34,633 bases of DNA, taken from contig CALWDO010000033.1 in NCBI GenBank assembly GCA_944376715.1, forward strand, positions 1 to 34,633, read 5' to 3'. Source of the stretch: an uncultured Lachnoclostridium sp. (GTDB taxonomy: Bacteria > Bacillota > Clostridia > Lachnospirales > Lachnospiraceae). Position 1 is the stretch's first letter. Each line of letters starts with the position of its first letter. Shown here in pieces: positions 15,578 through 31,480 of this stretch. Under the pieces are notes generated by a model. That model ran no database searches and was not told where the DNA came from. It saw only the letters and a list, made by a program, of their open reading frames with translations. The position numbers and the translations under genes were made by a program.

Positions 15578-16522
15578 TTATGATAAGTCTTTTTTGGCCA
15601 TTTTCAGAAATTCTTCCATGGCGCGTGTCACATACTTTCCTTTTTTATGATAGAAATATATAGTGCGCACAGACAGTACGGGGTCCAGCCGAAAGAAAAA
15701 GGTGTCCGGGCCGGCAGGAGCCTTTCGGATCAAGGTATCGCTGACAAACGTAATCCCCATCCCATAACAGGCCAGATGATAGGCGGTAGCCTGTTGATCC
15801 AGCTCCAGAATGATATCCGGTGAGAAGCTCTGCTGCCTGCACAGCATGTCTGCGCACCGGCGGGTGTCGTTTCCGCGCCGAAGAAGCAGGAACGGAGCAT
15901 GCTCAAATGCCTGCAGGCATATCTGAGAAATTTCGGAATTTTTGTGGTAATTTTCCAGGATGTCTGCGGATGTGAGCGGTTTGGGGGCATACTGCCGTTC
16001 GGGAAGGTATTTTTCGGGGACGGCCAGCAGAACCTGATCCGTAAAAAGCGGATATCTGGCGCATATGTTTTCGCTGAGTTCTTCACTGTCGATCATCAGG
16101 TCCAGGGAACCATCCAGGAGCTGCTCTGTGAGAACGGGTGAATTAGCTTCCGCCAGATGAATGTCAATATGAGGATATTTTCGTGTAAAATGACTGATAC
16201 AGGAAGGCAGGACGTAGGAAGCGAAAAGGTTGCTTGCGCCGATAGATAACTGCCCGGTTTGAAGCTCGTTCTGACCATTCATATAGTTTTCAAATTCATT
16301 TTGAATGTCCATGATTTTTTCCACGCAGCGGATATATTCGCGGCCGCAGTCTGTCAGCCGGATCGGGGAGGTACTGCGGTCAAAGAGCGGCGAACCGATG
16401 CGGTTCTCGATCTTTTTAACCACAGCGCTCAGCGAGGGCTGCGATATATACAGATTCTGCGCGGCTTTGGAAAAACTTCTTTCTTTGTATACTTCATAGA
16501 TGTAATGCATTCCCTGGAACAT
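15578..16522 (-). CDS. LysR-family transcriptional regulator
   Basis: A 314-residue LysR regulator. The winged helix is at residues 1-60: MHYIYEVYKERSFSKAAQNLYISQPSLSAVVKKIENRIGSPLFDR is the classic LysR helix-turn-helix and wing. The periplasmic-binding-like effector domain starts near LQTGQLSIGAS (about residue 90). ATG at 16522 is chosen because AAGGAG lies about 8 nt upstream; the open frame could run back to 16624 without a site. It is divergent from aspA with a 20-bp palindrome between them, so it probably controls aspA and itself. The effector is unknown; aspartate or fumarate would be natural guesses. Confidence 0.92.
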   Translation of the reverse strand: MFQGMHYIYEVYKERSFSKAAQNLYISQPSLSAVVKKIENRIGSPLFDRSTSPIRLTDCGREYIRCVEKIMDIQNEFENYMNGQNELQTGQLSIGASNLFASYVLPSCISHFTRKYPHIDIHLAEANSPVLTEQLLDGSLDLMIDSEELSENICARYPLFTDQVLLAVPEKYLPERQYAPKPLTSADILENYHKNSEISQICLQAFEHAPFLLLRRGNDTRRCADMLCRQQSFSPDIILELDQQATAYHLACYGMGITFVSDTLIRKAPAGPDTFFFRLDPVLSVRTIYFYHKKGKYVTRAMEEFLKMAKKDLS

Positions 16523-16634
16523 ATATGCGCTCCTTTTTGTATGAATCCCGACAGTATATAGTGCGTGCAAGCCGGTATCATATGAGTAAATTTTAAGATC
16601 AGTATATGGGAACAGAAGGTTCAAGTCAATTGAT

Positions 16635-16657: not shown

Positions 16658-16686
16658 TTATAAATTAATTGGTATTTGAATATAAT
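16658..16686 (+). promoter_or_regulatory. Promoter of aspA
   Basis: A perfect TATAAT (16681-16686) is preceded at 17 nt by a poor -35, TTATAA (16658-16663). The weak -35 beside a palindrome fits activator dependence. Confidence 0.5.
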
Positions 16687-16735
16687 CTTGCCCGCGCATA
16701 CAATGATAGCAGCAAAAGGACAGGAGGATATACAG

Positions 16736-18136
16736 ATGAGATATCGGACAGAAACAGATTCCATAGGAAGCAGAGAAGTACCGGAGGATGCATATTACGG
16801 CATACAGTCCATGCGTGCGGCGGAAAATTTCCGTATGACAGGACTGCATATCCATCCGGAAATGATCCGGAGCATGGCAGATGTGAAAGCGGCTGCGGCC
16901 ATCACCAATTATGAGACGGGATCTCTGGATGAGGAGAGGGAGAAGACAATTCTCCGTGCATGCTCTGAGATGAAGGAGGGCAGATTCGACAGTGAAATTA
17001 TCGTGGATCCGATCCAGGGAGGGGCAGGAACCTCACTGAATATGAATGTGAATGAAGTCCTTGCGAACCGCGCCATAGAATTACTGGGAGGTATTAAAGG
17101 GGATTATAAAATGGTTCATCCAAATGATCACGTTAATATGTCTCAGTCTACGAATGACGTATTTCCTACTGCCGGAAAAATAGCAGCCTGCCGCCTTGTA
17201 CAGAGGGCGGAAAAAGAGCTGAGGAGGCTGCAGAAGGCACTGGAAGGAAAAGCAGTCGAATTTTATCCGGTTATCAAAATGGGAAGAACACAGCTTCAGG
17301 ACGCGGTACCCGTCCGTCTGGGCCAGGAATTTGCCTCCTATGCGGCGGCAGTGGGAAGAGATATCAAGCGTATGGAGACGGCAGCGGGGGAGATGCAGAC
17401 TGTCAATCTGGGTGGAACCGCAATCGGCACGGGTATCAATGCGATGCCCCGGTATGTACAGCGTGTTGTTTACAATCTGGAACAGATAACCGGTCTGAAA
17501 TTGACACAAAGTGAGAATATGATCGATGGAACTTCCAATCTGGATCCTTTTGTGGCGGTATCCGGAAGCGTGAAAGCCTGTGCGGTGACATTATCTAAAA
17601 TAGCCAGTGACCTGCGCCTGATGTCATCGGGCCCGCGGACCGGTCTGGGAGAGATCCTGCTTCCCGGAAAGCAGAATGGTTCTTCGATCATGCCGGGAAA
17701 AGTCAACCCGGTGATTCCGGAAGTGGTTAATCAGGCGGCTTTTCAGATTTTCGGCAATGATGTGACGATTACGCTGGCGGCGGAATCGGGGCAGCTGGAA
17801 CTGAACGCTTTTGAACCGGTAATATTCTACAATCTGTTTCAGGCAGTGGATTTGCTGGGACACGCAGCCGCGACATTTACAGATAATTGTATCAATGGAA
17901 TCCAGGCAGATGAGGACCGGTGCAGGGATATGGTAGAGAACAGCGTGGGGAGAGTGACTGCGTTGTGTCCGTATCTGGGATATACAAAAGCGGCAGAGAT
18001 TGCCAAGAAAGCCGTGAAAGAGAAAAGAAATATCCGGGAACTGATTTTGGAAGAGGAATTGATGGGCGCCGAAGAACTGGACAGGGTGCTGGACCCGTAT
18101 GCCATGACGGAACCGGGAATACCGGGAAGAAAATGA
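16736..18136 (+). CDS. aspA: Aspartate ammonia-lyase (aspartase)
   Basis: This enzyme deaminates L-aspartate to fumarate and ammonia. The 466-residue protein belongs to the fumarase/aspartase superfamily. The three conserved regions are IQGGAGTSLNMNVNEVLANRA, the HPNDHVNMSQSTNDVFPTA stretch, and the flexible catalytic loop GSSIMPGKVNP at residues 315-325. The QGGAGTS reading favours aspartase over fumarase. AGGAGG at 16722-16727 lies 8 nt before the ATG at 16736, so the in-frame upstream extension to 16676 is not used. The LysR gene is divergent. The link to the asparaginase-like enzyme further on is metabolic only, because the two are in different operons. Confidence 0.92.
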   Translation: MRYRTETDSIGSREVPEDAYYGIQSMRAAENFRMTGLHIHPEMIRSMADVKAAAAITNYETGSLDEEREKTILRACSEMKEGRFDSEIIVDPIQGGAGTSLNMNVNEVLANRAIELLGGIKGDYKMVHPNDHVNMSQSTNDVFPTAGKIAACRLVQRAEKELRRLQKALEGKAVEFYPVIKMGRTQLQDAVPVRLGQEFASYAAAVGRDIKRMETAAGEMQTVNLGGTAIGTGINAMPRYVQRVVYNLEQITGLKLTQSENMIDGTSNLDPFVAVSGSVKACAVTLSKIASDLRLMSSGPRTGLGEILLPGKQNGSSIMPGKVNPVIPEVVNQAAFQIFGNDVTITLAAESGQLELNAFEPVIFYNLFQAVDLLGHAAATFTDNCINGIQADEDRCRDMVENSVGRVTALCPYLGYTKAAEIAKKAVKEKRNIRELILEEELMGAEELDRVLDPYAMTEPGIPGRK

Positions 18137-18679: not shown

Positions 18680-19864
18680 TTAGAGAGTGCTTTTCAACAG
18701 CTCTTTCAGATGGACATCCTGCACATGCTGTGATACGCCGATGATGCTGCTCTGGTATTTTTTGTAAAAGTGCTGGACGACCAGCCGTTTACGGAATGGA
18801 TAGAACAGAGGCAAAGGCTCTTTTATAATTTCCTCAAACATATCCCAGTACTGGTCGATGCTTTCTCCGCAGATCAGGACAATATCCGGATTGTAGACGC
18901 AAGCCATATTATTGATGGCTGCTTTGACATATGTGCATGCTTCGCTGACCAGTTCCCGTGCCCAGGAGATTCCTTTGACCCAGGCGCTGTGGATTTCCTC
19001 CAAAAGGAGGATATCCGGGTTGTATTTCTGGGCGCGCCTGATCAGGTATTCCTCGGCAATAAAAGTTTGAAGACACCCGCGGTTGCCGCATCCGCAGAGC
19101 ATGCCTCCTGGCTCCATAATCGTATGCCCGATTTCAGAAAATGGATTGCGTCCGGGCGGGGAGAGAAGAGCTCCCTGGTAACTGATGGCTGAACCGACGC
19201 CGGTTCCGATGCAGATGCAGGCTACGGCTTTCTCCTTGTACTCTGGATGGAGGACGCACTGCCCGATCAGGGCGGAATCGCAATCATTTTCCACAAGTAC
19301 GTTTTCCATATGGAATTTTTCAGCGACAGCCAGGCGCAGATTGACGTCGCGCCATTTTAACTGGGAGGTAATCAACAACATATCGGAATCGTTCATTGTG
19401 CCGACTACGCTGACACCGATGCCGCAGATGTGCGTCGGATCGATCCCGGAATCTGTAAGCGTACCCTGATATAGCTGATAGGCGATATCGAGCACCTGCT
19501 CGATGCTGGGCGAGGAAGTATCCATTTTCAAATACTGATCCGCGATGACCTTCTTACGGAAATTCAGGATAGATACATGAATATAAGTGGAGTCGATGTT
19601 GATTCCCACAGAATAGAACGCAGACTCGTTGATATCCAAAAGCGTAGCTGTCCGACCGACTTTTTTCTCGTCGGAAGGCATCTCGCGGAGCAGATTCACT
19701 TTCTGCATATTGTTCACAAAACGGGTAATGCTGGTGGGGCTCATACCGGAAACTTTCGCCAGATCCGCTCTGGAAATCGGAGTTTTATCATAAAGTATAT
19801 TAAAAATGGTGATCAGATTTGCAAGTTTCATATCTGTCTGATCTTGCGTCAACCCTTTTCTCAT
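18680..19864 (-). CDS. ROK-family transcriptional regulator (NagC/XylR type)
   Basis: A 394-residue regulator. The N-terminal winged helix (about residues 12-65) includes ISRADLAKVSGMSPTSITRFVNNM. The C-terminal ROK domain keeps VENDCDS (Asp194), the GTGVG phosphate loop (220-224) and the zinc motif CGCGNRGC (257-264). Such proteins repress sugar genes and are released by a sugar or sugar phosphate. It is divergent from the 20102-27945 operon, whose seventh gene encodes a ROK kinase, so local control of that operon is likely. AAAAGGA about 8 nt upstream supports the start. The effector is unknown. Confidence 0.92.
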   Translation of the reverse strand: MRKGLTQDQTDMKLANLITIFNILYDKTPISRADLAKVSGMSPTSITRFVNNMQKVNLLREMPSDEKKVGRTATLLDINESAFYSVGINIDSTYIHVSILNFRKKVIADQYLKMDTSSPSIEQVLDIAYQLYQGTLTDSGIDPTHICGIGVSVVGTMNDSDMLLITSQLKWRDVNLRLAVAEKFHMENVLVENDCDSALIGQCVLHPEYKEKAVACICIGTGVGSAISYQGALLSPPGRNPFSEIGHTIMEPGGMLCGCGNRGCLQTFIAEEYLIRRAQKYNPDILLLEEIHSAWVKGISWARELVSEACTYVKAAINNMACVYNPDIVLICGESIDQYWDMFEEIIKEPLPLFYPFRKRLVVQHFYKKYQSSIIGVSQHVQDVHLKELLKSTL

Positions 19865-19902: not shown

Positions 19903-19931
19903 ATCTTAATTGTCTTTTTCAGAGATGTCAA
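19903..19931 (-). promoter_or_regulatory. Sigma-A-type promoter for the ROK regulator gene
   Basis: On the minus strand, a perfect TTGACA (19926-19931) and TAAGAT (19903-19908) are 17 nt apart, 39 nt before the start codon. Confidence 0.6.
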
Positions 19932-20044
19932 TGAAATCGGATAATAAATTTCAGCAGAAAATAAATTAAACATAATATTTTTTGATAATGTCAAAAGTGC
20001 TTAAAAATGTATAAATTATTTAATAACCGCAGTGGAGAAATATA

Positions 20045-20073
20045 TTGACATTGTAAAAATTGCGGCGTATAAT
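20045..20073 (+). promoter_or_regulatory. Consensus sigma-A promoter of the 20102-27945 operon
   Basis: TTGACA (20045-20050), a 17-nt spacer and TATAAT (20068-20073) form a perfect consensus promoter. So strong a promoter implies that expression is set by repression, presumably by the divergent ROK protein. The AT-rich stretch 19940-20040 upstream includes AATAAATT repeated at 19943 and 19960. Confidence 0.88.
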
Positions 20074-20101
20074 GTCTAAATATAGAAAGGAGATGTGCAA
20101 A

Positions 20102-21490
20102 ATGACAGTTCTGACCGCCGCAGATGGGATTTTCCTTCGGGAAGAAAAAATGCCTGTTGTGGAATTTGCAAAAGAGGACTATGAACAGCGGATCAGCCGC
20201 CTTATCAGACGTATAGAAGAGCGGGGGCTGACCCATATGGTCATCTACGGAGACCGGGAGCATTTTTCCAATGTGGAATATTTTACCCGTTACGACTGCC
20301 GTTTTGAAGAAACTCTCTTTGTAGTCGGTGCAGATGGCCGCCGGTCTATCGTGGTCGGAAATGAAGGTATGGGATACAGCCGTGTGATACCGGTGGATGT
20401 GGACCGGTATCTGTACCAGAATTTTTCCCTGCAGGGACAGCCAAGAGACCGTCTTGAGCCGCTGGAAGAAATCCTTAAAAAGACCGGGCTTGGAGAAGGA
20501 AGCCGTGCGGGGATTGTGGGAATCAAATATTTCCGCGCTGAGGATATAGACGGAGACCCTTCCCAGACTTATGACCTGCCTCAGTATATTCTGGACGCGA
20601 TAAAAAAGACGGGTACTAATATGGTGAATGCTACGGAAGAGATCACCGGCGTGCCGGACGGTATCCGGCTGCGCCTGTATACGGCGAAGGAGATCGCCTG
20701 GGCGGAATCAGCGGGCAACAGAGCCGCTTCGGTAGTGCAGAGACTGATTAAAAATATGAGGGAAGGGATTCGGGAATATGAGCTGGCAGAATCGGCAAAG
20801 GTCGGATTCGACCCGCAGAATACATGGCCGCTGGTGAATTGTGGGGATGAGAGCGTAAGTATCGGGATGGGTTCTCCCAGGGACATACCGCTCGTTGCCG
20901 GGGAGCCGGGAGGCGTCTGCTACAGTGTGCGCGGGAACCTGACGTCCAGGGTCGCGGTGCTCGCATACGGGAAAGAGAGCTGCAAAAAGGAGCTTCAGCC
21001 ATATCTGGACAGCTTTTATGGAAAATATTTTGAGGCGCTGGCGGCGTGGTACGAGGCGCTGCATGTGGGCGCCACGGGAGGCGAACTGCACGACGCCGTC
21101 ATGGATATCATCGGAGGAGAAGAATTTGGCGTTACTCTGAACGCGGGGCATAATACAGGGACAGAAGAATGGAGCAACGCCATTTCTTATAAAGGCTCCC
21201 GGATACCGGTAGCCGACGGGGCGTTTATGCAGGCGGACATCATCGCCCACGGGGAGGATCCGGTGCGGACCGCTATCTGCGAAGACGCGGTGGTCGTGGC
21301 CGGAGAAGAACTCAGAAACGCTCTGCGGACGGAGTATCCGGAAACCTATGAGCGGATTCAGGCAAGAAAGAAAGCGATGAAAGAAGTACTGGGAATCCGG
21401 CTGCATGAGGACGTGCTTCCCATGAGTAATCTGAACGGCGCGTATTTCCCGTTCCTGCTGAATACGGGCCTGGTATATGCAAAAGAGTAA
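20102..21490 (+). CDS. Creatinase/M24-like pita-bread protein A (metal ligands missing)
   Basis: A 462-residue protein with an N-terminal creatinase-type domain (about 20-180) and a C-terminal pita-bread domain (about 195-462) as in Xaa-Pro aminopeptidases and creatinase. The M24 metal site needs two Asp, a His and two Glu. Here His350 (AGHNTG) and Glu394 (CEDAVVV) remain. The Asp-Gly...Asp pair is replaced in GGVCYSVRGNLTSRVAVL, and the first Glu position reads MQADI. It may therefore be a metal-free hydrolase like creatinase, or catalytically changed. ATG at 20102 sits 8 nt after GAAAGGAG. It is the first gene of the operon and a paralogue of 26563-27945. The substrate is unknown. Confidence 0.8.
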   Translation: MTVLTAADGIFLREEKMPVVEFAKEDYEQRISRLIRRIEERGLTHMVIYGDREHFSNVEYFTRYDCRFEETLFVVGADGRRSIVVGNEGMGYSRVIPVDVDRYLYQNFSLQGQPRDRLEPLEEILKKTGLGEGSRAGIVGIKYFRAEDIDGDPSQTYDLPQYILDAIKKTGTNMVNATEEITGVPDGIRLRLYTAKEIAWAESAGNRAASVVQRLIKNMREGIREYELAESAKVGFDPQNTWPLVNCGDESVSIGMGSPRDIPLVAGEPGGVCYSVRGNLTSRVAVLAYGKESCKKELQPYLDSFYGKYFEALAAWYEALHVGATGGELHDAVMDIIGGEEFGVTLNAGHNTGTEEWSNAISYKGSRIPVADGAFMQADIIAHGEDPVRTAICEDAVVVAGEELRNALRTEYPETYERIQARKKAMKEVLGIRLHEDVLPMSNLNGAYFPFLLNTGLVYAKE

Positions 21491-21503
21491 AGGAGAGACT
21501 GCC

Positions 21504-22523
21504 ATGTATACTAAATTGATAAGCGAATATCGTTTTGACCCTTCGGAGGATCCCAAAAGCGCTGCTTTTGACTTGATGCATTACGGGTACGTCTGCATCG
21601 TAGATGAACATTCTAATGTATTGTACAGCGCGGGCGACTGCGACGACCTGGTATTTTACCGTTCTGCGTCCAAGCCGATCCAGGCGCTGCCGGTGTTTGC
21701 GCACGGGCTGGATAAAAAATACGGGCTTGAAGAGAAAGAATCCGTAATCCTGTCCGCATCCCATGCGGGATGTCCCTGCCATGTGGAGGCGGTGGAAAGC
21801 GTTCTGAAAAAAGCCGGGTTCACAGAGGATATCCTGTGTATGAATCCCGCCGTTCCGGCAGATGTAAAGGCGAATGAAGACAGAATCCGCCAGGGCATTC
21901 CGCCCAGGAAGATTTTCCACAACTGTTCCGGGAAACATGCGGCGCTTCTGCTGGTGCAGAAATATCTGGGCGGAGTCCCGGAGGACTACTGGAAAGTAGA
22001 CACGCCGGTATTTGAAGAGATTGCCAGAACCATTCAAACCATGGCCGAGACAGATACGATGAAGGTGGGCGTGGACGGCTGCGGCGTTCCGGTATTCGCG
22101 GTGGGGATGAAAAATATCGCCGTTTCTTACAAGAATCTTGCATGTATCGACACGATCCAGGACGAGGCGCTTCAGAAGGCTGCTGCGACCAATGTGGACA
22201 GAATTATGAAACATCCGGAGATGATCCGGGGGAACGGATTCCTCTGTACGATTATGAATGAAGATCCCAATATCATCGCCAAAGGCGGAGCCAATGGGGT
22301 ATATGGTTTCGGCCTGAAGAAACAGCGGCTGGGAGTGGCATTCAAATTCATAGACGGCACGGAAGAAGCATGGTCCTTTATGGCGAAGGAAATCCTGAGC
22401 GCACTGGGAGCGCTGACGCCAGAGCACGAGAAGCGTCTGGACACTCTCCATCCGAAATATTTTGTCAATGACAATCAGAGAGTAGTGGGAGAGCGAAGAT
22501 GTGAGATAAAGATATCTATTTGA
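21504..22523 (+). CDS. Asparaginase of the PF06089 (AnsA / R. etli) type
   Basis: A 339-residue protein of the asparaginase family unrelated to the common E. coli enzymes. Family motifs present are RSASKPIQALP (Ser54, Lys57), SASHAGCPCH (Ser86), HNCSGKHAALL (Cys141, Lys144), VDGCGVPVFA (Cys193) and AKGGANGVYGFG (Lys260). These match the Ser-Lys pairs and cysteine/lysine metal site reported for the Rhizobium etli enzyme, so activity on an amide of asparagine or a related compound is likely. ATG at 21504 has AAAGGAG overlapping the previous stop. The context beside a sugar-type ROK kinase leaves room for a modified asparagine as substrate. Confidence 0.85.
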   Translation: MYTKLISEYRFDPSEDPKSAAFDLMHYGYVCIVDEHSNVLYSAGDCDDLVFYRSASKPIQALPVFAHGLDKKYGLEEKESVILSASHAGCPCHVEAVESVLKKAGFTEDILCMNPAVPADVKANEDRIRQGIPPRKIFHNCSGKHAALLLVQKYLGGVPEDYWKVDTPVFEEIARTIQTMAETDTMKVGVDGCGVPVFAVGMKNIAVSYKNLACIDTIQDEALQKAAATNVDRIMKHPEMIRGNGFLCTIMNEDPNIIAKGGANGVYGFGLKKQRLGVAFKFIDGTEEAWSFMAKEILSALGALTPEHEKRLDTLHPKYFVNDNQRVVGERRCEIKISI

Positions 22524-22564
22524 GGTGCAGATAGATATTGTTATAAAGAAAAGGAGGAAAAGAG

Positions 22565-23416
22565 ATGAAGAAAGGTGTAGCAAAAAGAATATTGGCATTG
22601 GGTTTTGCGCTGGTATTGGCGGCAGGATGTTTGTCCGGCTGCGGATCTGGACAAGAGGGCGGCGGTGAGTCCGCCGGAGCGGCAAGCTCCAGCAGATTGA
22701 ACGATATCATCGAAAAAGGCAAGATCACCATCGGCGTCAATCCGCCCGGAGAACCGGTCTGCTTCTACGATGATGAAGGCAACCTGATCGGATACGATGT
22801 GGACTGGGCTTATAAGTTAGGGGAAACTCTTGGCGTAGATGTGGAGCTGGTAGAAGTGAACGGTGAGAACCGGATCAGTATGGTAAGTTCCGGAAGGGTA
22901 GACGTGATTTTTGCAAATATCACCGGCAGCCTGGAACGTGCAAAGAGCATCAATTTTTCGATCCCGTATCTGAAAACTGGCGTCAAGATGGCGGTAAGGC
23001 CGGGACTGGAAGACGTGCAGGAGATCTCTGACCTGAATGATCCGCAGTTTAAGGTGGCTCTGGCGAGCGGTACCACTGGCGAAGAACTGGTGCTGGAGCA
23101 GGCGCCGGAAGCAGAGATCATCTATGTGGCAAGCCTTTCAGACCAGTGTCTGGCTCTTCAGGAAGGCAGATGCGACGCGATCCTGGAAGACGGCACCTCT
23201 CTGGATTATCTGGCCAGCCAGTCCGACTACATGGAAGTGCGCGAAACGACCTACACGTCTGATCCGATCTGCATCGGATATGCGAAGGGAGATCCGGATT
23301 TTGGAAGATATCTGGATATGTTCGTTTCCTATATGATCAGTGAAGGATTCCAGGCCGATACCTACTACAAGTGGTTCGGAGCAGAATATGCCAGCCCGAT
23401 GGAGCATCCGTGGTAA
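22565..23416 (+). CDS. Amino-acid ABC transporter substrate-binding lipoprotein
   Basis: A 283-residue family 3 (SBP_bac_3) binding protein. The signal peptide ends in a lipobox, LSGC, with Cys26 as the likely lipid anchor. A Gly/Ser/Ala-rich linker follows to about residue 42. The mature part carries IIEKGKITIGVNPPGEPVCFYDDEGNLIGYDVDWA and VDVIFANITGSLERAKSINFSIPY, typical of polar amino-acid binders. It lies outside the membrane and hands the ligand to the two permeases downstream. A ribosome-binding site, AAAGGAGG, precedes the ATG. Ligand identity cannot be read from the sequence. Confidence 0.94.
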   Translation: MKKGVAKRILALGFALVLAAGCLSGCGSGQEGGGESAGAASSSRLNDIIEKGKITIGVNPPGEPVCFYDDEGNLIGYDVDWAYKLGETLGVDVELVEVNGENRISMVSSGRVDVIFANITGSLERAKSINFSIPYLKTGVKMAVRPGLEDVQEISDLNDPQFKVALASGTTGEELVLEQAPEAEIIYVASLSDQCLALQEGRCDAILEDGTSLDYLASQSDYMEVRETTYTSDPICIGYAKGDPDFGRYLDMFVSYMISEGFQADTYYKWFGAEYASPMEHPW

Positions 23417-23448
23417 ACGGTTGGACGGTAAACAAGGGGGATACGCAT

Positions 23449-23478
23449 ATGGGGAGATTCCGCACAGGATCTCCCCAT
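23449..23478 (+). other. Intercistronic stem-loop between binding-protein and permease genes
   Basis: ATGGGGAGAT (23449-23458) pairs perfectly with 23469-23478 around a 10-nt loop. There is no T-run, so it more likely protects the binding-protein mRNA or slows read-through than ends transcription. Confidence 0.65.
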
Positions 23479-23502
23479 CCTTATATATGAAAGGATGTTG
23501 TT

Positions 23503-24168
23503 ATGTACAGATTAAGCTTTCGGTTCCTGGAAAATCCACAGTATCAGGAACTGTTGAAGGAAGGCGTCATCAATACGCTGATCATCACTTTCTTCTGCCT
23601 GATCTTTGGATTCCTGATCGGACTGATCGTAGCCATGATGCGCAGATCGAAGATGAAAGTTCTAAGAGGATTTGGTGCGTTCTGGGTGGATTTCCTGAGA
23701 AATACGCCGTTTCTGGTGCAGCTTTTCTTCTTTTACCACAGCCTTCCGAGGCTGGGGATAGAGCTGGATCCGGTGATTGTGTCTATTATCGCGCTGAGCA
23801 TCAATACCAGCGCAGGCAACTGCGAGGTTATCCGTGCCGGTCTGATGGCGGTCAAGAAAAGTTATTATGAATGCGCGGCAGCGCTGGGACTCAGCACTTT
23901 CCAGACGGTTCGCCACGTGGTGCTTCCAATTTCACTGCGGGTGGCGTTTAAACCTCTGGTAAGTAATTTTGTCAACCTGATCCTGACTACTTCTACATGC
24001 TTTTCCATCACGGTAGTGGAACTTATGGGAGCTTCTAAAATTATCAACGGAAGGGTTGACCGTCCGTTTGAGATTTATCTGCTGCTTCTGGTAGCGTACT
24101 GCTGCATTACCTTCCTGATCTCTATGATCTCCAAGGCAGTGGACAGGAAGATCGCGATTACATTGTAG
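23503..24168 (+). CDS. Amino-acid ABC transporter permease 1
   Basis: A 221-residue inner-membrane permease of the His/Glu/Gln/Arg/opine family. It has about five membrane helices, with the family's N-terminal GVINTLIITFFCLIFGFLIG and FLRNTPFLVQLFFFYHSLP. The coupling loop SYYECAAALGLSTFQTVRHVVLPISLR, containing the EAA motif, contacts the ATPase. It pairs with the permease at 24184 to make a heterodimeric channel. The gap after the binding-protein gene is 86 nt and holds a hairpin; the other genes of the importer are closely spaced. Confidence 0.94.
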   Translation: MYRLSFRFLENPQYQELLKEGVINTLIITFFCLIFGFLIGLIVAMMRRSKMKVLRGFGAFWVDFLRNTPFLVQLFFFYHSLPRLGIELDPVIVSIIALSINTSAGNCEVIRAGLMAVKKSYYECAAALGLSTFQTVRHVVLPISLRVAFKPLVSNFVNLILTTSTCFSITVVELMGASKIINGRVDRPFEIYLLLLVAYCCITFLISMISKAVDRKIAITL

Positions 24169-24183
24169 AAAGGAGAATGTTCT

Positions 24184-24861
24184 ATGCAGGAAGTTCATGT
24201 GATGGGGCAATACTCCCAGCTGGCGGTAGGCGATATATATACGTTCCTGGAAGCCTGCGGGGTCACGCTTCTGGTAACTTTGGTATCTCTGGTGCTGGGT
24301 ACCCTGTTGGGAACGGCACTGGGACTGGTACGGTGCTCGAAAAATAAAATTATCAGTTCGCTTCCGCTGATTATAATGGAACCTCTCAGAAACTCACCGC
24401 TGGTTGTCCAGCTTTTTCTGGTATATTATGGCCTGCCTATGGTGTTCGGGATCCTGCTGGACGCGTATCCGGCGGCAATCCTTACGCTGTCGCTGAACAC
24501 AGCCGCTTTTTTCGCCGTACTGGTGCATAATTCGATTACGGCGATCCCGGTATCTCAATGGGAGGCGGGATATGCACTGGGACATGGAAAAGCGTCCACT
24601 TTTGTAAATGTGATATTCCGCCAGGCGCTGCGCCTTCTGATACCGCAGGCGATTACGCTTTACATTAATCAGCTTCAGTGCTCGTCGATGATTTCTCTGA
24701 TCAGCCTTCGCGACATCTGCCGGATCGGCCAGCTGGTGTCGGTGCGGACAATGCAGCCATTTCTGGTGTGGGGGATCGTGTTCGCGCTGTATTATGTGAT
24801 CTCGTTCCCGTTGGCACGTCTTGCCAGCTATTTAGAGAAGAGAGTTAATTTTTCATACTGA
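24184..24861 (+). CDS. Amino-acid ABC transporter permease 2
   Basis: A 225-residue partner of the preceding permease, of the same family. It carries MEPLRNSPLVVQLFLVYYGLP and the EAA-type loop QWEAGYALGHGKASTFVNVIFRQALRLL. The first helix region is GVTLLVTLVSLVLGTLLG. GAAAGGAG precedes the ATG by about 8 nt. Only 15 nt separate it from the first permease, and the next gene starts 13 nt after its stop, so they are co-translated. Nothing unusual was seen. Confidence 0.94.
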   Translation: MQEVHVMGQYSQLAVGDIYTFLEACGVTLLVTLVSLVLGTLLGTALGLVRCSKNKIISSLPLIIMEPLRNSPLVVQLFLVYYGLPMVFGILLDAYPAAILTLSLNTAAFFAVLVHNSITAIPVSQWEAGYALGHGKASTFVNVIFRQALRLLIPQAITLYINQLQCSSMISLISLRDICRIGQLVSVRTMQPFLVWGIVFALYYVISFPLARLASYLEKRVNFSY

Positions 24862-24874
24862 TGAGGTGAATGCT

Positions 24875-25609
24875 ATGGCAATGATTGAAGTAAAAAATAT
24901 AACAAAAAGTTATGGAGACCATACTGTGCTGAAGGATTTCAGCGTAGATTTCGACCAAAGCGGCGTGACAGTGATCCTGGGTCCCAGCGGGACAGGAAAG
25001 AGTACGCTTCTGCGGTGCATCAATGGCCTGGAGAAAACCAATTCCGGAGATATCCTTGTGGACGGCCTTTCGGTCAATGACAAGAAGAACTTAAAGCAGA
25101 TCCGTATGACCTGCGGCATGGTGTTCCAGCATACAGTAATCTTTCCTCACCTGAACGTGATGGAAAACCTGATCATGTCCCCGATGAAGATTCTGAAGAC
25201 TCCGAAGGGGGAAGCCATCGACAAAGCGCGGTATTATCTGAAGAAGGTAGGATTGGAGTCCAAAGAAAAATCTATGCACAACGAGCTTTCCGGCGGGGAA
25301 CAGCAGCGTATCGCCATCGCACGCGCATTGATGATGAACCCGAAGGCGCTTCTCCTGGATGAGATCACATCTGCGCTGGACCCGGAAATGACCCGGGAGG
25401 TGCAGAACGTACTGGAGAGTCTGGCTGCGGACGGGGTGTGCATGCTTTGTGTGACCCATGAAATGTCGTTTGCACGGGATGTGGCGAGCAGGATTCTGTT
25501 CCTGGATGGGGGAAGCATTGTCTGCGACGCCCCAAAGGATGAGTTTTTCGGGAAGATACGTCAGGAAAACGACAGAATCAACAAATTCTTGAGTTTTATA
25601 GGAGAGTAA
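24875..25609 (+). CDS. Amino-acid ABC transporter ATPase
   Basis: A 244-residue GlnQ/HisP-type ATPase. Walker A GPSGTGKS is at 36-43, the Q-loop Gln85 is in VFQHTVIFPHL, the signature LSGGEQQR is at 138-145, and Walker B with the catalytic Glu is in LLLDEITSALD. The switch His lies in CVTHEM. The Walker B reads DEI rather than the usual DEP, a mild variation. GAGGTGA at 24863-24869 favours the ATG at 24875 over the GTG at 24866. It powers the importer encoded by the three genes before it. Confidence 0.95.
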   Translation: MAMIEVKNITKSYGDHTVLKDFSVDFDQSGVTVILGPSGTGKSTLLRCINGLEKTNSGDILVDGLSVNDKKNLKQIRMTCGMVFQHTVIFPHLNVMENLIMSPMKILKTPKGEAIDKARYYLKKVGLESKEKSMHNELSGGEQQRIAIARALMMNPKALLLDEITSALDPEMTREVQNVLESLAADGVCMLCVTHEMSFARDVASRILFLDGGSIVCDAPKDEFFGKIRQENDRINKFLSFIGE

Positions 25610-25620
25610 GGCTGAAGTTT

Positions 25621-26559
25621 ATGAAGGTAATTTTTGGGGTAGATATCGGAGGGACCAATATCAAGATCGGAAGATTCACCCCGGACGGGGAGCTTCTGGA
25701 GAAATGGTCGGTAAAGACAGATTTATCAGACTGCGGAAAAAAGATTATTCCGCAGGTAGCAGGCTGCATATCAGAAAATATGGCGGAGAATAACCTGTGC
25801 GAAGAGGATATGGAAGGGATCGGTATGGGGATACCGGGTCCTGTAGACAAAAACGGATATGTAAAGAAATGTGCCAATTTGAACTGGAATGATTTCAACC
25901 CGGTGGAAGAACTGAAGAAATTTTTCCCGGACTGCCGCGTCCGCGCGGGCAATGACGCCAATGTGGCCTCCCTGGGAGAATATTTCCGGGGCGCGGGGAA
26001 AGGCTCATCCAGCATGATGATGGTTACATTGGGCACCGGAGTAGGAGGAGGAGTGATCATCGGCGGAAAGATCATCATCGGCGCCCACGGGATCGCGGGC
26101 GAGATCGGGCATATCTCGGTCACAGATGCGGAGGAGGACTGCAACTGCGGAAACAGGGGCTGCATAGACCAGTGGGCGTCTGCCACAGGGATTGTCCGGG
26201 AGGCCGGGAGACTCCTGGAAGCCGACGACAAACCGTCGATGCTGCGCCAGGCAGAGAAGCTGACCTCCAAAGACGTCTGCAGCTTTGCAAAACAAGGGGA
26301 CAATCTGGCGGTGGAGTGCATCAACCGGTGTATGTATCCGCTGGGGAAGGGACTGGCGTATTTTTCCCATGCTTTTGATCCGGAAGTCTATGTGATCGGC
26401 GGAGGTGTATCTCTGGCCGGAGAGATCATCGTGGATGCCGTGCGGAGGGGATATGAGGACAATCTGTATCTGATCCGTAAAGGAGCGGATATAAGGCTGG
26501 CAGAACTTGGGAACGACGCGGGAATCATTGGCGCGTGCGCGCTGGCATCAGGTGAGTAG
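25621..26559 (+). CDS. ROK-family sugar kinase (glucokinase-like)
   Basis: A 312-residue ROK kinase. The ATP motif DIGGTN is at 8-13, the catalytic Asp112 is in GNDANVA, the second phosphate loop is GTGVGGG, EIGH is at 161-164, and the zinc motif CNCGNRGC is at 174-181. All catalytic features are intact and there is no DNA-binding domain, so it should phosphorylate a sugar or sugar derivative with ATP. Glucose or an N-acyl-amino sugar would be typical for the family. Its place inside an amino-acid importer operon, with no sugar transporter or isomerase, is unusual and is the main hint that the imported compound carries a sugar. Confidence 0.9.
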   Translation: MKVIFGVDIGGTNIKIGRFTPDGELLEKWSVKTDLSDCGKKIIPQVAGCISENMAENNLCEEDMEGIGMGIPGPVDKNGYVKKCANLNWNDFNPVEELKKFFPDCRVRAGNDANVASLGEYFRGAGKGSSSMMMVTLGTGVGGGVIIGGKIIIGAHGIAGEIGHISVTDAEEDCNCGNRGCIDQWASATGIVREAGRLLEADDKPSMLRQAEKLTSKDVCSFAKQGDNLAVECINRCMYPLGKGLAYFSHAFDPEVYVIGGGVSLAGEIIVDAVRRGYEDNLYLIRKGADIRLAELGNDAGIIGACALASGE

Positions 26560-26562
26560 AAT

Positions 26563-27945
26563 ATGAATATTGTATATAAAAAGGTAAACATGCCTCCGGT
26601 ACATACAGATTATGTGCCGGTCGCACTGACAAAAGAGACAATGGAATCCCACAGGCGGCAGGTTCTTTCCCGGATGGAAGAGAAGGGGCTGGACGCACTG
26701 CTGGTTTATGCGGACCGGGAGCATGGAGCAAACTATGCGTATCTGACGGGATTTGAACCCAGATTTGAAGAAAGCGTACTGATTCTGTACAAAGACGGCT
26801 CTTGCTGTCTGATGCTGGGAAATGAGAATCTGAAGATGTGCGGCTACAGTTTTATAAAAGCTGCGCCTGTACATGTACCGCATTTTTCCCTCCCATATCA
26901 GCCGATGGATACAGATAAAAGCCTGCCGGAGCTTTTTCGGGAAGCGGGGCTTCTGAATGGGATGAAGATCGGGTGCGCCGGATGGAAGTGGTTCACCAGC
27001 AGGTATGATGAGAACGGGCAGATGCTGGATATCCCGTCGTTTATCACGGACGCTGTCCGAAGACTCTGCCCGGACAGCGTGCTGACAAACGCGGCGGATA
27101 TCTTTCTGGATCCTGTAAGGGGCCTTCGGATCTTCTCCAATGCGAATGAGATCGCTCATTATGAATTCGGGGCCGGCCTTGCGTCGGCCAGGGTGCTGGA
27201 GGCTTTGAATTATGCGGAACCTGGGAAAACAGAGATGGAAATTGCGGATAAACTTTGCTGCATGGGACAGCCGACGACGGTGACAACGATCTGCGCAACA
27301 GGAGAACGGTTTACGGACGCGGTGGTTTTCCCGCGGAATAAAACAGTTCAGCTGGGAGACAAATTTTCGCTGACTTTGGGATTGAGAGGGGGGCTTACTT
27401 CCCGCGCTGCATATATGGTGTCCCGAAGAGAAGAACTTCCGGAAGAAGCGCGCGATTATATGGAACGGCTGGCAGTTCCTTATTATAATATGGCGATGAA
27501 ATGGTATGAAGCAGCAGGAATCGGAGTGAAATGTGCAGAGATATATCAGATGGCGGAAGAACTGCTGCCAAAAGAGTTGTATCATTGGACACTGAATCCG
27601 GGACATTCTACCGGTGCGGACGAATGGGTATCCTCTCCTATGTATCCGGGTTCGGAAGTGATCCTGCAAAGCGGTATGATGCTGCAGATGGATATTATCC
27701 CGTCAGTGTCGGGATATGGCGGAGCCAATGCGGAGGATGGAATCGCCATCGCGGATGAAAAGCTGCGAGGGGAACTTAAAGAGAGATATCCCGATGCCTG
27801 GAAACGGATGCAGGACCGCCGGGAGTATATGGAGCGAGAGCTGGGCATCCGGCTTAAGGAAGAGATCCTGCCTTTGAGCGACCTGTGCGGGTATATGCGC
27901 CCGTATATCCTGAACCGTGAATATGCGCTGGCAAAGGGGGAGTAA
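26563..27945 (+). CDS. Creatinase/M24-like pita-bread protein B (paralogue of 20102-21490)
   Basis: A 460-residue paralogue of the first operon gene. Both share the N-terminal YADREHGANYAYLTGFEPRFE block (YGDREH... in protein A) and the C-terminal GIRLKEEILPLSDL block. The pita-bread core keeps His348 (NPGHSTG) and Glu391 (AEDGIAI). The Asp ligands are absent in LGDKFSLTLGLRGGLTSRAAYM, and the first Glu site reads MLQMDI. Protein A shows the same losses, so they predate the duplication or were selected in both. It starts 3 nt after the ROK kinase stop. A heterodimer with protein A is possible, since the family is often dimeric. The reaction is unknown. Confidence 0.8.
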   Translation: MNIVYKKVNMPPVHTDYVPVALTKETMESHRRQVLSRMEEKGLDALLVYADREHGANYAYLTGFEPRFEESVLILYKDGSCCLMLGNENLKMCGYSFIKAAPVHVPHFSLPYQPMDTDKSLPELFREAGLLNGMKIGCAGWKWFTSRYDENGQMLDIPSFITDAVRRLCPDSVLTNAADIFLDPVRGLRIFSNANEIAHYEFGAGLASARVLEALNYAEPGKTEMEIADKLCCMGQPTTVTTICATGERFTDAVVFPRNKTVQLGDKFSLTLGLRGGLTSRAAYMVSRREELPEEARDYMERLAVPYYNMAMKWYEAAGIGVKCAEIYQMAEELLPKELYHWTLNPGHSTGADEWVSSPMYPGSEVILQSGMMLQMDIIPSVSGYGGANAEDGIAIADEKLRGELKERYPDAWKRMQDRREYMERELGIRLKEEILPLSDLCGYMRPYILNREYALAKGE

Positions 27946-27984: not shown

Positions 27985-28872
27985 TTAATTCTTGCAGATC
28001 ACGCGTGCATATTTTTTCGGCGAGTCTTCCAGAACGCGTATTTCTCCTTCCCGGATCATGTGCCCGATCCTGGAGGCGTACCACAGATCGTTTTGAAAAA
28101 CAGGGTATTTGCCCAGAATGTTTCCGATCAGTCTCGCCTCCTTGATGGGCGTCTCTGTCAATTCCTTTCGGATGAGAAAATCATAAAAATCTTCAGGGAC
28201 TCCGGTCAATTCCCCGTTTATCACCGCGCGCAGAGGACTGTTGTCTTCTTTCAGGCTTGTCCAGAAGCCGGCATACATGGTCCGTTCTGCTTCCGTGAGC
28301 GTTTTCTGCAGGGGCAGAAAGCTGCTGAACTGATCATGGCTGACTTCGCCCCAGTTTTTGATACGCTGCAGGGAATGGTCTTTCCACTCGCAGTGATGGG
28401 GAAGCTCCACTACATGGATCGTACAGTCTGTGTGCTTTAATTCCGAACAGATCCAGTAAAGCCCGCACAAAGAATAAGGCGCATAACTGTACCAGATACG
28501 CACTTCATTATTGTCTCTCAAAAGAGTAAGAAACCGGCTGTATGATTGAAAATATCCATGGATTTCCTCTTTCAGGCTTTCCCGGAAAGCTTCGGAGTCG
28601 GTCCATGAATTTTCTATATGCAGGGACTGAATCAGTTCCAGACGGTAGGTGCTGTCTGCAGGTTTTTGGATATCTCCGATATCCAGAAGAAAGGGAAGGC
28701 CGATCACTTCCGCGGGAGTCCCCGGAATAGGAACCCATTCCTTTGGCGGCAGCATATGCGCGGGAGGATTGCCGATGACAGAGACGGGACCGTCTGACCT
28801 GCACAGGCTTTTCATGCTTTTTGCACATTTCATAGAACCGGTTTCGCTTTCGCCAAATAATACTTCTATCAA
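27985..28872 (-). CDS. DUF1835/DUF3658 domain protein
   Basis: A 295-residue cytosolic protein. The N-terminal part (MIEVLFGESETGSMKCAK... to about 130) matches the DUF1835 pattern with its VLFGxSxxGSLKxA-type opening. The C-terminal third (from about FYDFLIRKEL) resembles DUF3658. The biochemical function of this family is not known to me. The start is TTG at 28872, supported by AAGGGGGA about 8 nt upstream and a good promoter at 28905-28933. It is divergent from the polyamine importer operon. No membrane segment or signal is visible. Confidence 0.8.
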   Translation of the reverse strand: MIEVLFGESETGSMKCAKSMKSLCRSDGPVSVIGNPPAHMLPPKEWVPIPGTPAEVIGLPFLLDIGDIQKPADSTYRLELIQSLHIENSWTDSEAFRESLKEEIHGYFQSYSRFLTLLRDNNEVRIWYSYAPYSLCGLYWICSELKHTDCTIHVVELPHHCEWKDHSLQRIKNWGEVSHDQFSSFLPLQKTLTEAERTMYAGFWTSLKEDNSPLRAVINGELTGVPEDFYDFLIRKELTETPIKEARLIGNILGKYPVFQNDLWYASRIGHMIREGEIRVLEDSPKKYARVICKN

Positions 28873-29059: not shown

Positions 29060-30640
29060 ATGGCGAAAAAACTGGTGGAGTTCCGGAATATTGTAAAGAA
29101 CTTTGACGGCCAGATTGTCCTGAAGGGGGTTAATCTGGATATTTATGAGAATGAATTTGTGACGCTCCTCGGTCCCAGCGGGTGCGGAAAGACCACGCTT
29201 CTGCGTATATTGGGAGGCTTTCTGGATCCGGACGAGGGCGAAGTGATCTTTGACGGTGAGGAGATCAGCAATAAACCTCCCTATGAGAGGGAATTGAATA
29301 CTGTGTTTCAGAAATATGCGCTGTTTCCTCATCTCAGCGTGTATGAAAACATTGCCTTTGGCCTGAAGATCAAGAAGGTGGCCAAGGATATCATCGATCA
29401 GAAAGTCATGAAGATGCTGAAACTGATCGGCCTGGAAGGGTATGAGAATAAGAACACGACTTTATTGTCCGGAGGACAGCAGCAGCGCGTCGCCATTGCA
29501 AGAGCGCTGGTGAACGAGCCGAAGGTGCTGTTGCTGGACGAGCCGCTGGCGGCGCTGGATCTGAAGCTGCGCAAGGAAATGCAGTATGAATTGAAGCGGA
29601 TTCAACAGGAGGTGGGGATTACTTTTATTTTTGTCACCCATGACCAGGAAGAGGCGCTGACTATGTCTGATAAGATCGTGGTCATGAATAACGGCGAGAT
29701 CCAGCAGGTGGGAGCACCGGAAGATATATATAATGAACCGGTCAACCAGTTTGTGGCCAACTTTATCGGTGAAAGCAATATTCTGCCCGCTGTTATGGTA
29801 GAAGACTATAAAGTCCGGTTTGACGACATTACGTTTGACTGTGTAGATTTTGGCTTTAAAGAAAATGAGCCGGTGGATGTGGTGATCCGTCCGGAGGATA
29901 TCGACATTGTGGACGTGGCGGACGGGAAGATGACCGGAGAGGTACTGAGCGTTTTGTTTAAGGGCGTACACTATGAGATTATTGTGGAGACAGTGCCGGG
30001 AACCAGCGTCACGGTTGACATGCGGGTGATTCGCAACCATGACGTGAGCAGCGAAGACGGCAGCGAGAAGATCAGCGCCAATGATTTCTATGTGGATGTG
30101 GACGATGTGGGAGAGCTGGACGAAAAGGAAGTCATCGCGCTGTCCAATGCACAGGCGTGGGATCCGGGCAGTGATGAGTTTATCTCTATCGCAAAAGTAG
30201 AGTATGAGGTGCCTGAGAAAGAAGGCCAATATCCGGTGGTGTTCTCTACTGCCAAAGGCACGAAGATCGAGCGGACGATCTTTGTGGTAGATCAGCCTTT
30301 TGTGAAGAATGAAAAGGCTAATGAGGGCATCATGGCGTTTAACTTCTTCAAGACAGTAGATGAGATCACAGAATCTCAGGCGCTGGATACGGATCTGAAG
30401 ACCTGGGCCAATGCGCAGGGCTGGAAGCTGAGCGATGAAAATCAGAGTATCGATATCAGCGTGGACTATGATTTTGAACCGGAGCAGGTGAAAGAGGGAG
30501 TCTATAAGATCACGTTCTGGACAACCGGCCAGGAGTTTAAGATCCATACCACCGACTATACGGAAGTGGGACAGCAGGTGGGACTTACATTTTTCCCGGA
30601 AGATATTCACGTGATGTCTAAGGGGGTATACGGAGGATGA
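29060..30640 (+). CDS. potA: Spermidine/putrescine ABC transporter ATPase PotA with Ig-like insertion
   Basis: A 526-residue PotA, against about 350-380 in most bacteria. The ATPase part is normal: Walker A GPSGCGKT at 38-45, signature LSGGQQQR at 136-143, Walker B LLLDEP at 157-162, and switch His194. The C-terminal TOBE regulatory domain starts near residue 240. It is split after [19 protein letters not shown] (about 293-311) and resumes at [19 protein letters not shown] (493-511). Between them is an insertion of about 170 residues with two related segments: [20 protein letters not shown] through FVV (about 363-410), and [20 protein letters not shown] through FWT (about 451-488). These resemble Ig-like repeats. 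AAAGGAG supports the ATG, and the stop overlaps the potB start. Confidence 0.92.
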
Positions 30641-31476
30641 AACGATTCGCACAGCTTGCGCTGCCGTACATCGTATGGGCGGCTTTGATGCTGGTGCTTC
30701 CCATGGCGCTGATCGCCGTATATTCTTTTATGGATCAGGGAAACAGCATCATACCTTTTTCTTTTACATTGAAGCATTATGTACGGTTCTTCACCGATCC
30801 GGATTTTCTGCTGATTCTCTGGAGATCGATTTTGATCGCGGTGAAGACGACGGTGATCTGCCTGCTCCTGGGATACCCGATTGCATATTTTATTGCGCGC
30901 AGTTCGGAACGGCTCCAGAATATGCTGATTCTCTGCATCACCATTCCTATGTGGATCAATATGCTGGTGCGTACTTATGCCTGGATCGGACTTTTGAGTG
31001 AAGGCGGACTGGTGCAGCGTTTTCTCGGGCTTTTTGGCCTGGGAGATATGGAACTTCTGTATACGGAAGGTTCGGTACTGCTGGGAATGGTATATAACTT
31101 CCTGCCCTTTATGATTCTGCAGATTCAGACAGCGCTCAGCAAGATGGACCATTCTTTGCTGGAAGCCAGCGCGGATCTGGGAGCGAATCCCCGCCAGACT
31201 TTTCAGCGCGTGATCCTGCCGCTGTCGCTGCCGGGCGTGATCAACGGGATCACGCTGGTGTTTCTGCCTGCGGTGAGTTCCTTCTTTATTCCGAAACTGC
31301 TGGGAGGCGGCCAGTATTTCCTGATCGGAAATATGATCGAAAATCAGTTTATCACAGTAGGCGAGTGGAATTTCGGCAGTGCGATCTCCATGATTATGGC
31401 AGTGATTATGATGCTGCTGATGATGGCAGTGCGCCGGATCGAGATCCGCAACCAGGGCGGAAAGGAGGATGAGTGA
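30637..31476 (+). CDS. potB: Spermidine/putrescine ABC transporter permease PotB
   Basis: A 279-residue permease with about six membrane helices. It has the PotB-type start [24 protein letters not shown] and the EAA loop [27 protein letters not shown], which docks on PotA. It begins with ATG overlapping the potA stop by 4 nt (ATGA), and its own stop lies inside the start of the next gene. It works with the PotC half of the following fusion to form the channel. The polyamine substrate is inferred from family and gene order. Confidence 0.93.
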
Positions 31477-31480
31477 CCGT

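Follow-up and report, generated by a model that had tools for sequence, protein, structure and literature searches.

What compound is consumed by an operon that encodes an amino-acid importer and an asparaginase alongside a sugar kinase and two proteins with the fold of prolidase and creatinase? This question is raised by positions 20102 to 27945 of contig CALWDO010000033.1 from an uncultured Lachnoclostridium sp., a contig that we analyzed in its entirety (34,633 bases, hereafter the window) and that comes from a genome of 2.9 Mb which is 88% complete. We observe that this operon joins two modules which are seen separately elsewhere, i.e., a ROK kinase with an M24-fold protein, and an asparaginase with an M24-fold protein and, in some loci, an amino-acid importer. 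The common thread is M24-fold proteins without the metal pair, which are found with asparaginase in one setting, and in the other with kinases and importers for sugars and with further amide hydrolases. Our tentative answer, possible rather than probable, is that the operon encodes a single catabolic pathway for conjugated asparagine, most likely asparagine with a hexose-type sugar on its nitrogen, resembling N-acetylglucosaminyl-asparagine (GlcNAc-Asn) or glucosyl-asparagine (Glc-Asn).

Analysis of this region identified eight open reading frames, all on the plus strand, with intergenic gaps of -14, 41, 86, 15, 4, 11, and 3 nucleotides. They encode, in order, a pita-bread (M24-fold) protein of 462 amino acids, M24a (20102-21490; PF00557, 23.4 bits); a class 3 (ReAV-type) L-asparaginase (21477-22523; PF06089, 286 bits); a polar amino-acid binding protein of the SBP_bac_3 family (22565-23416); two ATP-binding cassette (ABC) permeases of the HEQRo type (23503-24168 and 24184-24861) and a GlnQ-like ABC ATPase (24866-25609), all assigned by family match; a ROK sugar kinase (25621-26559); and a second pita-bread protein, M24b, of 460 amino acids (26563-27945; PF00557, 36.5 bits). 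Together with the promoter-like sites described below, these frames and gaps confirmed the region to be one eight-gene operon, divergent from the gene for a ROK repressor, as proposed in a first-pass annotation of this DNA. The same annotation had noted the lack of a sugar importer and of a deglycase, and our family profile searches likewise identified neither a sugar importer nor a phosphosugar-isomerase-type (SIS) deglycase among the eight genes.

Two gene modules around M24-fold proteins

Scanning genome contigs with M24b identified 413 relatives, and the locus counts given here refer to the best 80, 11 of which have less than 8 kb of DNA on one side. Neighbors were labeled by similarity to reference genes, with Pfam or NCBIfam checks for MlrC, Amidohydro_2, arginase, M20, and one phosphotransferase system (PTS) match, and with the rest assigned by eye. 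A ROK kinase gene, called using a length rule and profile labels (an earlier single-linkage count of 17 had merged kinases with ROK repressors), is present within 8 kb of M24b in 12 of the 80 loci, and in 11 of these 12 it immediately precedes M24b on the same strand (L019, L020, L021, L026, L028, L034, L037, L042, L045, L061, and L087); in the remaining locus, L024, it occupies another position within the 16 kb, which provides a built-in control. Ten of the 11 pairs are part of clusters with RbsA/RbsC-type sugar importer genes, with the other, L034, found with CUT1-type permeases, and none of the 11 loci contains an asparaginase or an amino-acid importer within 8 kb. Across all 80 loci, the genes within 8 kb of M24b include an RbsC-like permease in 14 (a label that means similarity to one by-eye reference, and that we used in place of the “RbsA” label, whose 26 loci also took in unrelated ABC ATPases), MlrC (M81) in 13, a glucose-type PTS in 6, Amidohydro_2 in 6, M20 in 5, an arginase-family gene in 4, an FGGY kinase in 3, and an asparaginase in 1.

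Some arrangements of M24b neighbors recur. For example, upstream of M24b in L019, L020, L021, and L023 we observe an arginase-family protein, LacI, sugar ABC genes, and Amidohydro_2, with the ROK kinase absent from the L023 version of this cluster. One cluster of ROK kinase, M24b, Rbs-type importer, MlrC, and ROK repressor is present in L014/L045, L061, and L087, and MlrC and M24b also occur with a glucose-type PTS in L038, L040, L043, L050, L070, and L084. The M24b family additionally matches 64 public plasmid records, under annotations that include “M24 family metallopeptidase,” “aminopeptidase P family protein,” and “Xaa-Pro aminopeptidase.” On Agrobacterium pAt1 (L152) and Rhizobium pRlX3 (L153), these homologs adjoin annotated ROK regulators and sugar ABC genes, with an M20 hydrolase and an alpha-glucosidase also present on the former; the Enterococcus and Rahnella plasmid copies that we examined have unrelated genes around them, and the M24b gene of Citrobacter has no match in the E. 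coli complete genomes. M24a was matched in 3 of the 98 relatives searched and in 6 of the 391 genomes of the class (own genome included; some matches are M24b-like). At one of the loci identified in this way, L108, the neighbors include MlrC and sugar ABC genes (by eye) and a PfkB kinase (profile match), and at another, L109, a Dpp-like importer and an M20-like gene (by eye).

The second module consists of ASPARAGINASE and an M24 gene, with or without an amino-acid importer. An asparaginase gene lies beside a gene for an M24-fold protein in four further loci (L022, L170, L171, and L148), and the kinase is present in none of these. Both L170 and L171 contain genes for an asparaginase, M24c (from a separate M24 subfamily, with 18-27% identity to M24a and M24b), a binding protein, two permeases, and an ATPase in the same order as in the window, with a divergent regulator, which is of the AraC type in L170; neither the kinase nor M24b is present in either stretch. 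Between the window and L170, identity is 42% for the asparaginase, 50% for the binding protein, 58 and 65% for the permeases, and 74% for the ATPase. In L148/L182 (genome G836, from another family of the same order), the asparaginase gene is followed after 55 nucleotides by M24c (61%, tblastn), and the 1.8 kb left on the contig contains no importer match; this locus strengthens the link between asparaginase and M24 proteins, but is likewise without a kinase. An M24 gene adjoins the asparaginase gene in four of the seven PF06089 loci that came from our asparaginase searches (the window, L170, L171, and L148). In L022, an Oscillospiraceae metagenome-assembled genome found via M24b, the asparaginase gene ends 9 nucleotides before M24b (67% identical), with no kinase or importer in the available DNA, and with no M24a relative in that genome besides its M24b at E ≤ 1e-10. 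A further genome, G214, carries both modules on separate contigs, with L171 on C66 and L014/L045 on C78.

The first-pass annotation had made its reading depend on conservation of the kinase with the rest of the cluster, and had proposed searching genomes for the same gene set. The kinase is not conserved with the asparaginase-importer part, being absent from L170, L171, L148, and L022, and we found the full gene set only in this genome among the genomes searched (1,839 by count), where no all-genome search for the asparaginase, the kinase, and M24b lying within 15 kb of one another was made.

Sequence features of the encoded proteins

Despite the weak Pfam scores of M24a and M24b, both can be assigned to the pita-bread fold, since their AlphaFold2 models (predicted local distance difference test scores of 86.1 and 95.3, respectively) match the structures of prolidase, creatinase, and ectoine hydrolase (DoeA) in Foldseek searches, and both predicted models include the creatinase/prolidase N-domain. 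This bears out the earlier description of the two as pita-bread proteins resembling C-N hydrolases. The metal ligands of M24 metallopeptidases are Asp, Asp, His, Glu, and Glu. Alignment of M24b with Pyrococcus prolidase (1pv9) places T271 at the first bridging Asp and H348, D377, and E391 at the last three positions, and the second bridging Asp lies where this alignment is gapped, and is best anchored at L278, using an alignment anchored on a conserved Arg. We dropped A282 as a candidate for this second position, where the Arg-anchored alignment gives L278 and the 1pv9 alignment alone a residue further on. Our conclusion is independent of the exact position, since there is no Asp anywhere across residues 271-286 in 48 of 48 rows of one alignment (A3) and 19 of 19 rows of another (A6), two alignments that share some proteins.

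Of the five ligands, M24b has therefore lost both Asp, has kept the His, has Asp in place of the first Glu, and has kept the last Glu. This His-Asp-Glu set is invariant in the 48 A3 rows and in the 19 A6 rows, and 34 more columns are invariant across the 48. The bridging positions are occupied by C and L in M24a and by T and A in M24c, with H, D, and E kept in both. With the two bridging Asp residues gone, the dinuclear site of the M24 family should not form, and the loss of this pair together with retention of His-Asp-Glu argues that these are not ordinary metallopeptidases; their chemistry may use a single metal held by His-Asp-Glu, or may be metal-free. The residues also depart from those of ectoine hydrolase, as the DoeA row (L172) has E, P, Y, M, and E at the five positions compared with T, L, H, D, and E in M24b and T, A, H, D, and E in M24c, i.e., it differs at four of five.

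The operon kinase scores 269 bits against the ROK glucokinase model TIGR00744 (cut-off, 260 bits) and retains every ROK motif (DxGxT, as DxGGT; GND; ExGH; and CxCGxxGCx(E/D), as CxCGxxGCID), in agreement with the earlier prediction of an intact ROK sugar kinase, with Asp183 replacing the usual Glu at that end of the zinc motif which contacts the sugar. We compared 13 M24-linked kinases (that of the window, the 11 encoded directly upstream of M24b, and that of L024) with a glucokinase-family background from relatives, for which 37 matches were listed, 30 loci taken, and 23 used, after exclusion of the window’s own kinase and six with an internal stop. This comparison demonstrated that GCx is followed by Asp in 13 of 13 linked kinases and by Glu in 23 of 23 background proteins. 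Maximum-likelihood analysis grouped 12 of the 13 linked kinases into one clade (support, 99/97), with the Paenibacillus kinase of L034 on a long branch outside it. A second glucokinase-family protein of the same genome, L114, scores 305.7 bits, has the normal Glu, and falls outside the M24-linked clade. The operon kinase thus resembles ROK glucokinases in scoring above the family cut-off and in having all the ROK kinase motifs, but it belongs to a clade separate from L114 and has neither the grouping nor the Glu after GCx that would mark it as one of them. We considered and rejected the possibility that it is a misplaced housekeeping glucokinase, since L114 is encoded elsewhere; with a second protein above the cut-off in the genome, the operon kinase need not be the housekeeping one. 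In human N-acetylmannosamine kinase, Glu588, which is the motif Glu, is listed among the sugar-coordinating residues in the cited part of PMC5458393, and the change to Asp183 suggests a different sugar substrate. A sharp prediction of the pathway proposed here is that ROK kinases with this Asp would act on a sugar other than that of glucokinase.

The asparaginase shares the two Ser-Lys tandems and the full set of three zinc ligands with the Rhizobium etli enzymes ReAV and ReAIV, and it differs from them in being embedded with an importer, a kinase, and M24 proteins. In an alignment with the 8cly chain, S63-K66 and S95-K269 correspond to S48-K51 and S80-K263 of ReAV, with the 3- and 32-residue spacings of S48-K51-S80 kept, and C150, K153, and C202 correspond to the zinc ligands C135, K138, and C189; the catalytic and zinc-binding residues of ReAV, four and three in number, are those given in the relevant section of PMC8602277. 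All seven residues are invariant in four of four aligned rows. The protein encoded from 21477 is a predicted class 3 L-asparaginase, and the earlier call of a PF06089 asparaginase with its key residues stands on the 286-bit score and on the match to ReAV. It is 77-78% identical to the asparaginase of L022, 41-42% to that of L170, and 41% to that of L148. Close relatives are rare, occurring in 2 of 392 genomes of the order at E ≤ 1e-70, and a four-row asparaginase profile matched 5 of 299 genomes of the family at E ≤ 1e-30 (own genome included in both counts).

The binding protein has a lipoprotein-like N-terminus (by eye), and its SLERAK and ILEDG motifs align with the ERK and D-S motifs of AncCDT-1, in which we take the Arg of ERK to contact the alpha-carboxylate and the Asp to contact the alpha-amino group. 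With both of these motifs kept, as in polar amino-acid importers, the cargo may be a compound with a free amino-acid end, and an asparagine modified on its side chain would suit this site better than fructose-asparagine would. Searching the 299 family genomes with the binding protein identified two others at about 50% identity, i.e., the counterparts in L170 (50%) and L171 (49%).

Control region and flanking genes

The operon is preceded by a promoter-like site, TTGACA-17-TATAAT (20045-20073, plus strand), which matches the sigma-70-like consensus at 12 of 12 positions and is the sole 12/12 match among the 18 promoter-like sites of the region (12.0 in shuffles), and an AAAGGAG is present ahead of the 20102 start (by eye). 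The divergent gene (18680-19864, minus strand) encodes a ROK-family (NagC/Mlc-like) transcriptional regulator, with a PF00480 match of 104.5 bits, weak winged-helix matches, and NCBIfam Mlc/NagC matches below cut-off; a promoter-like site for it, TTGACA-17-TAAGAT (19903-19931, minus strand), matches the consensus at 10 of 12 positions, by consensus only. Inverted repeats at and 5′ of the operon promoter (19980-19994 with 20045-20059, and 20040-20055 with 20068-20083) form a candidate operator spanning 19980-20083, in AT-rich DNA where chance matches may occur. Between the genes for the binding protein and permease 1, a consensus scan identified a 12-pair hairpin (23449-23478, plus strand), which could possibly serve in transcript processing or attenuation. 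A strong hairpin at such a position is often seen where the binding protein is needed in excess.

Beyond the regulator gene lies aspA (16676-18136, plus strand), which encodes aspartate ammonia-lyase (NF008909, 689.5 bits; cut-off, 510) and is preceded by a LysR regulator gene (15578-16624, minus strand), near V-ATPase genes; 4 of the 26 relatives searched have a match at E ≤ 1e-100 (own genome included). In genome G312 (L166), the V-ATPase genes, part of the LysR region, and aspA match the window at the DNA level at 86-90%, and this match ends at window position 18135. The G312 aspA frame is 43 amino acids shorter and adjoins V-ATPase genes, recombinase-like genes (by eye) follow past aspA, and there is no M24a match in this genome. 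Since the homology stops at the end of aspA and recombinase-like genes follow, the operon may be an accessory insertion. We rejected aspA as a member of the operon, as it lies beyond the opposite-strand regulator gene and is present in G312 without an M24a match, and we consider it a possible sink for released aspartate. Directly 3′ of the operon, a convergent gene (27985-28872, minus strand) encodes a DUF1835/DUF3658 protein, and 29060-33373 encodes a spermidine/putrescine-type ABC importer whose 526-amino-acid ATPase has a long extension past the TOBE domain.

Candidate substrates and comparison with known pathways

In the conjugated-asparagine pathway that we favor, the ROK repressor would sense the compound or its sugar, and the amino-acid ABC importer would take up the conjugate through its free amino-acid end. 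Aspartate, ammonia, and the sugar would then be released as the class 3 asparaginase and the M24-fold hydrolases break C-N bonds, with the sugar phosphorylated by the ROK kinase for entry into glycolysis and the aspartate converted to fumarate by the neighboring aspartase. We infer the substrate, the order of the steps, and the bond cut by each M24 protein, and a sugar-conjugated asparagine would be the most economical single substrate. The recurrence of kinase with M24b, and of asparaginase with M24 proteins, gives both halves of this sugar-plus-asparagine idea independent support from gene neighbors. The first-pass annotation had proposed use of a sugar-amino acid adduct, and this proposal is supported in part, with one module tying M24 proteins to sugars and the other to asparaginase, while the kinase is not conserved with the asparaginase-importer part. 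Glycated and glycosylated amino acids arrive in the gut from food and from host glycoproteins, and few bacterial routes for their use are known to us.

Several observations weigh against this pathway. We know of no PF06089 protein that cleaves a glycosylated amide. A cluster containing both kinase and asparaginase was not found outside this genome, 68 of the 80 M24b loci (11 of the 80 having less than 8 kb on one side) show no ROK kinase in the surrounding 8 kb, many copies of M24b in Bacillales and Enterobacteriaceae have no such partners, and three of the seven PF06089 loci (L179, L180, and L181) have no M24 match by tblastn in the DNA examined. The kinase is nearer to glucokinase models than to GlcNAc-kinase models, and its Asp may not mean a new substrate, since the published ROK motif, CxCGxxGCx(E/D), as given in the cited part of PMC5458393, permits either residue. 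In addition, ReAV is reported to be without glutaminase activity in the section of PMC8602277 that describes it.

A somewhat doubtful alternative, rated below the single pathway, is that two independent pathways share one promoter, in which the asparaginase, M24a, and the importer would serve an asparagine derivative or an asparagine-containing dipeptide, and the kinase and M24b, drawn from a sugar cluster, would serve another compound. The absence of the kinase from L170 and L171, the absence of asparaginase and amino-acid importer within 8 kb in the 11 kinase-M24b loci, and the separate contigs of the two modules in G214 all favor such an arrangement. However, L022 joins asparaginase to M24b across a 9-nucleotide gap without a kinase, so that M24b and asparaginase also go together, and in the window the kinase and M24b follow the importer at gaps of 11 and 3 nucleotides behind the same promoter.

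It is quite unlikely that the M24 proteins are true dipeptidase-like hydrolases, as prolidase is, which would act on an asparagine-containing di- or pseudo-peptide, with the asparaginase deamidating the freed asparagine and the kinase a bystander. The nearest folds are indeed those of prolidase and dipeptidases, the plasmid copies are named M24 family metallopeptidase or aminopeptidase P, and the importer is of the polar amino-acid type, but binding proteins for small amino acids usually do not take peptides, and the bridging Asp residues are missing from every row of both alignments, so that the dinuclear site should not form.

We regard as improbable an ectoine- or creatine-like substrate, whose amidine or guanidine group would be hydrolyzed by the M24 proteins (as by DoeA or creatinase) with an amide intermediate then serving as a substrate of the asparaginase en route to aspartate. 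DoeA and creatinase are among the fold matches, arginase-family genes occur in 4 of 80 M24b loci, the Shinella homolog has an arginine-deiminase-family gene nearby, and ectoine catabolism, as outlined in the cited part of PMC5924519, pairs an M24-fold hydrolase with an importer and ends at aspartate; such a substrate leaves no role for a sugar kinase, however, and the residues at the metal positions are unlike those of DoeA (L172).

The parallel with fructose-asparagine that the first-pass annotation had drawn fares still worse, and we consider it very improbable that the operon uses this Amadori compound in the manner of Salmonella fra, with an M24 protein taking the part of the FraB deglycase once the kinase has acted. 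To our knowledge, no M24-fold enzyme carries out ketoamine deglycation. The operon encodes no SIS deglycase, and its binding protein keeps the motif for an unsubstituted alpha-amino group, which fructose-asparagine would lack. The combination of kinase and asparaginase is as in fra (PMC4072780, in the part describing the operon), but on balance fructose-asparagine is less likely than a glycosyl-asparagine. Finally, although the metal pair is lost and Spt16 is among the weaker fold matches of M24a, it is highly improbable that M24a and M24b are non-enzymatic pseudo-peptidases with a binding or regulatory function like the pita-bread domain of Spt16, since the invariant His, Asp, and Glu and 34 further columns in 48 rows point to a conserved active site.

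Returning to conjugated asparagine, a wider and more speculative proposal, which we rate as unlikely, is that the M24-like proteins of Bacillota, Enterobacterales, and Rhizobiales, misnamed as metallopeptidases, make up a large and as yet undescribed class of pita-bread enzymes with a non-dinuclear (His-Asp-Glu) site, which cleave the C-N bonds of sugar-amide and sugar-amino-acid conjugates, with the operon forming a complete glyco-asparagine pathway in which two of them are coupled to a class 3 asparaginase and to a kinase from a dedicated ROK clade. If right, this would give a first role to widespread proteins that databases call metallopeptidases even though their metal-bridging residues are gone. 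In the open-licence PMC literature we found no paper on the M24-like family with creatinase, M81/MlrC, ROK, or sugar transport, and none on an operon of asparaginase, M24, amino-acid ABC, and ROK genes.

Comparison with three described pathways places the operon close to, but outside, known systems. Ectoine catabolism by EutD/DoeA (PMC5924519) resembles it in having a dedicated importer and an M24-fold C-N hydrolase and in ending at aspartate, but the pathway as outlined in the cited part includes neither a sugar kinase nor an asparaginase, and the DoeA residues at the lost metal site differ from those of M24b and M24c. Salmonella fra likewise combines an asparaginase, a sugar kinase, and an importer in one operon; according to the cited part of PMC4072780, which mentions no M24 protein, it has a dicarboxylate-type transporter and the SIS-type deglycase FraB, whereas the eight genes here include no such deglycase, and the four SIS matches in the source genome are on other contigs.

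The alf-2 cluster of L. casei, in which the glycosylasparaginase AsnA2 and the ROK kinase SugK are required for use of Fuc-GlcNAc-Asn and which additionally encodes an aspartate decarboxylase (described in the cited sections of PMC6960285), similarly places an asparagine-releasing amidohydrolase, a peptidase-family gene, a ROK kinase, an aspartate-consuming enzyme, and an importer of glyco-amino acids at one locus. A ROK kinase is thus common to both, with SugK phosphorylating GlcNAc and not glucose. The differences are an autoprocessed glycosylasparaginase in alf-2 versus PF06089 here, a non-required M20 peptidase versus M24-fold proteins, an MFS permease versus an amino-acid ABC importer, a GntR regulator versus a ROK regulator, and an aspartate enzyme inside the locus versus aspA outside the operon, with no fucosidase among the eight genes. 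On the features tested, the operon is a member of neither fra nor alf-2. Of the first-pass annotation’s suggestions, GlcNAc-Asn best fits the logic of alf-2, even though the autoprocessed glycosylasparaginase of that cluster has no counterpart here. By analogy, alf-2 appears to be the closest demonstrated logic, carried out with different enzymes, and if our reading of a conjugated asparagine is right, the operon would represent a new import-hydrolysis-phosphorylation route built from other protein families.

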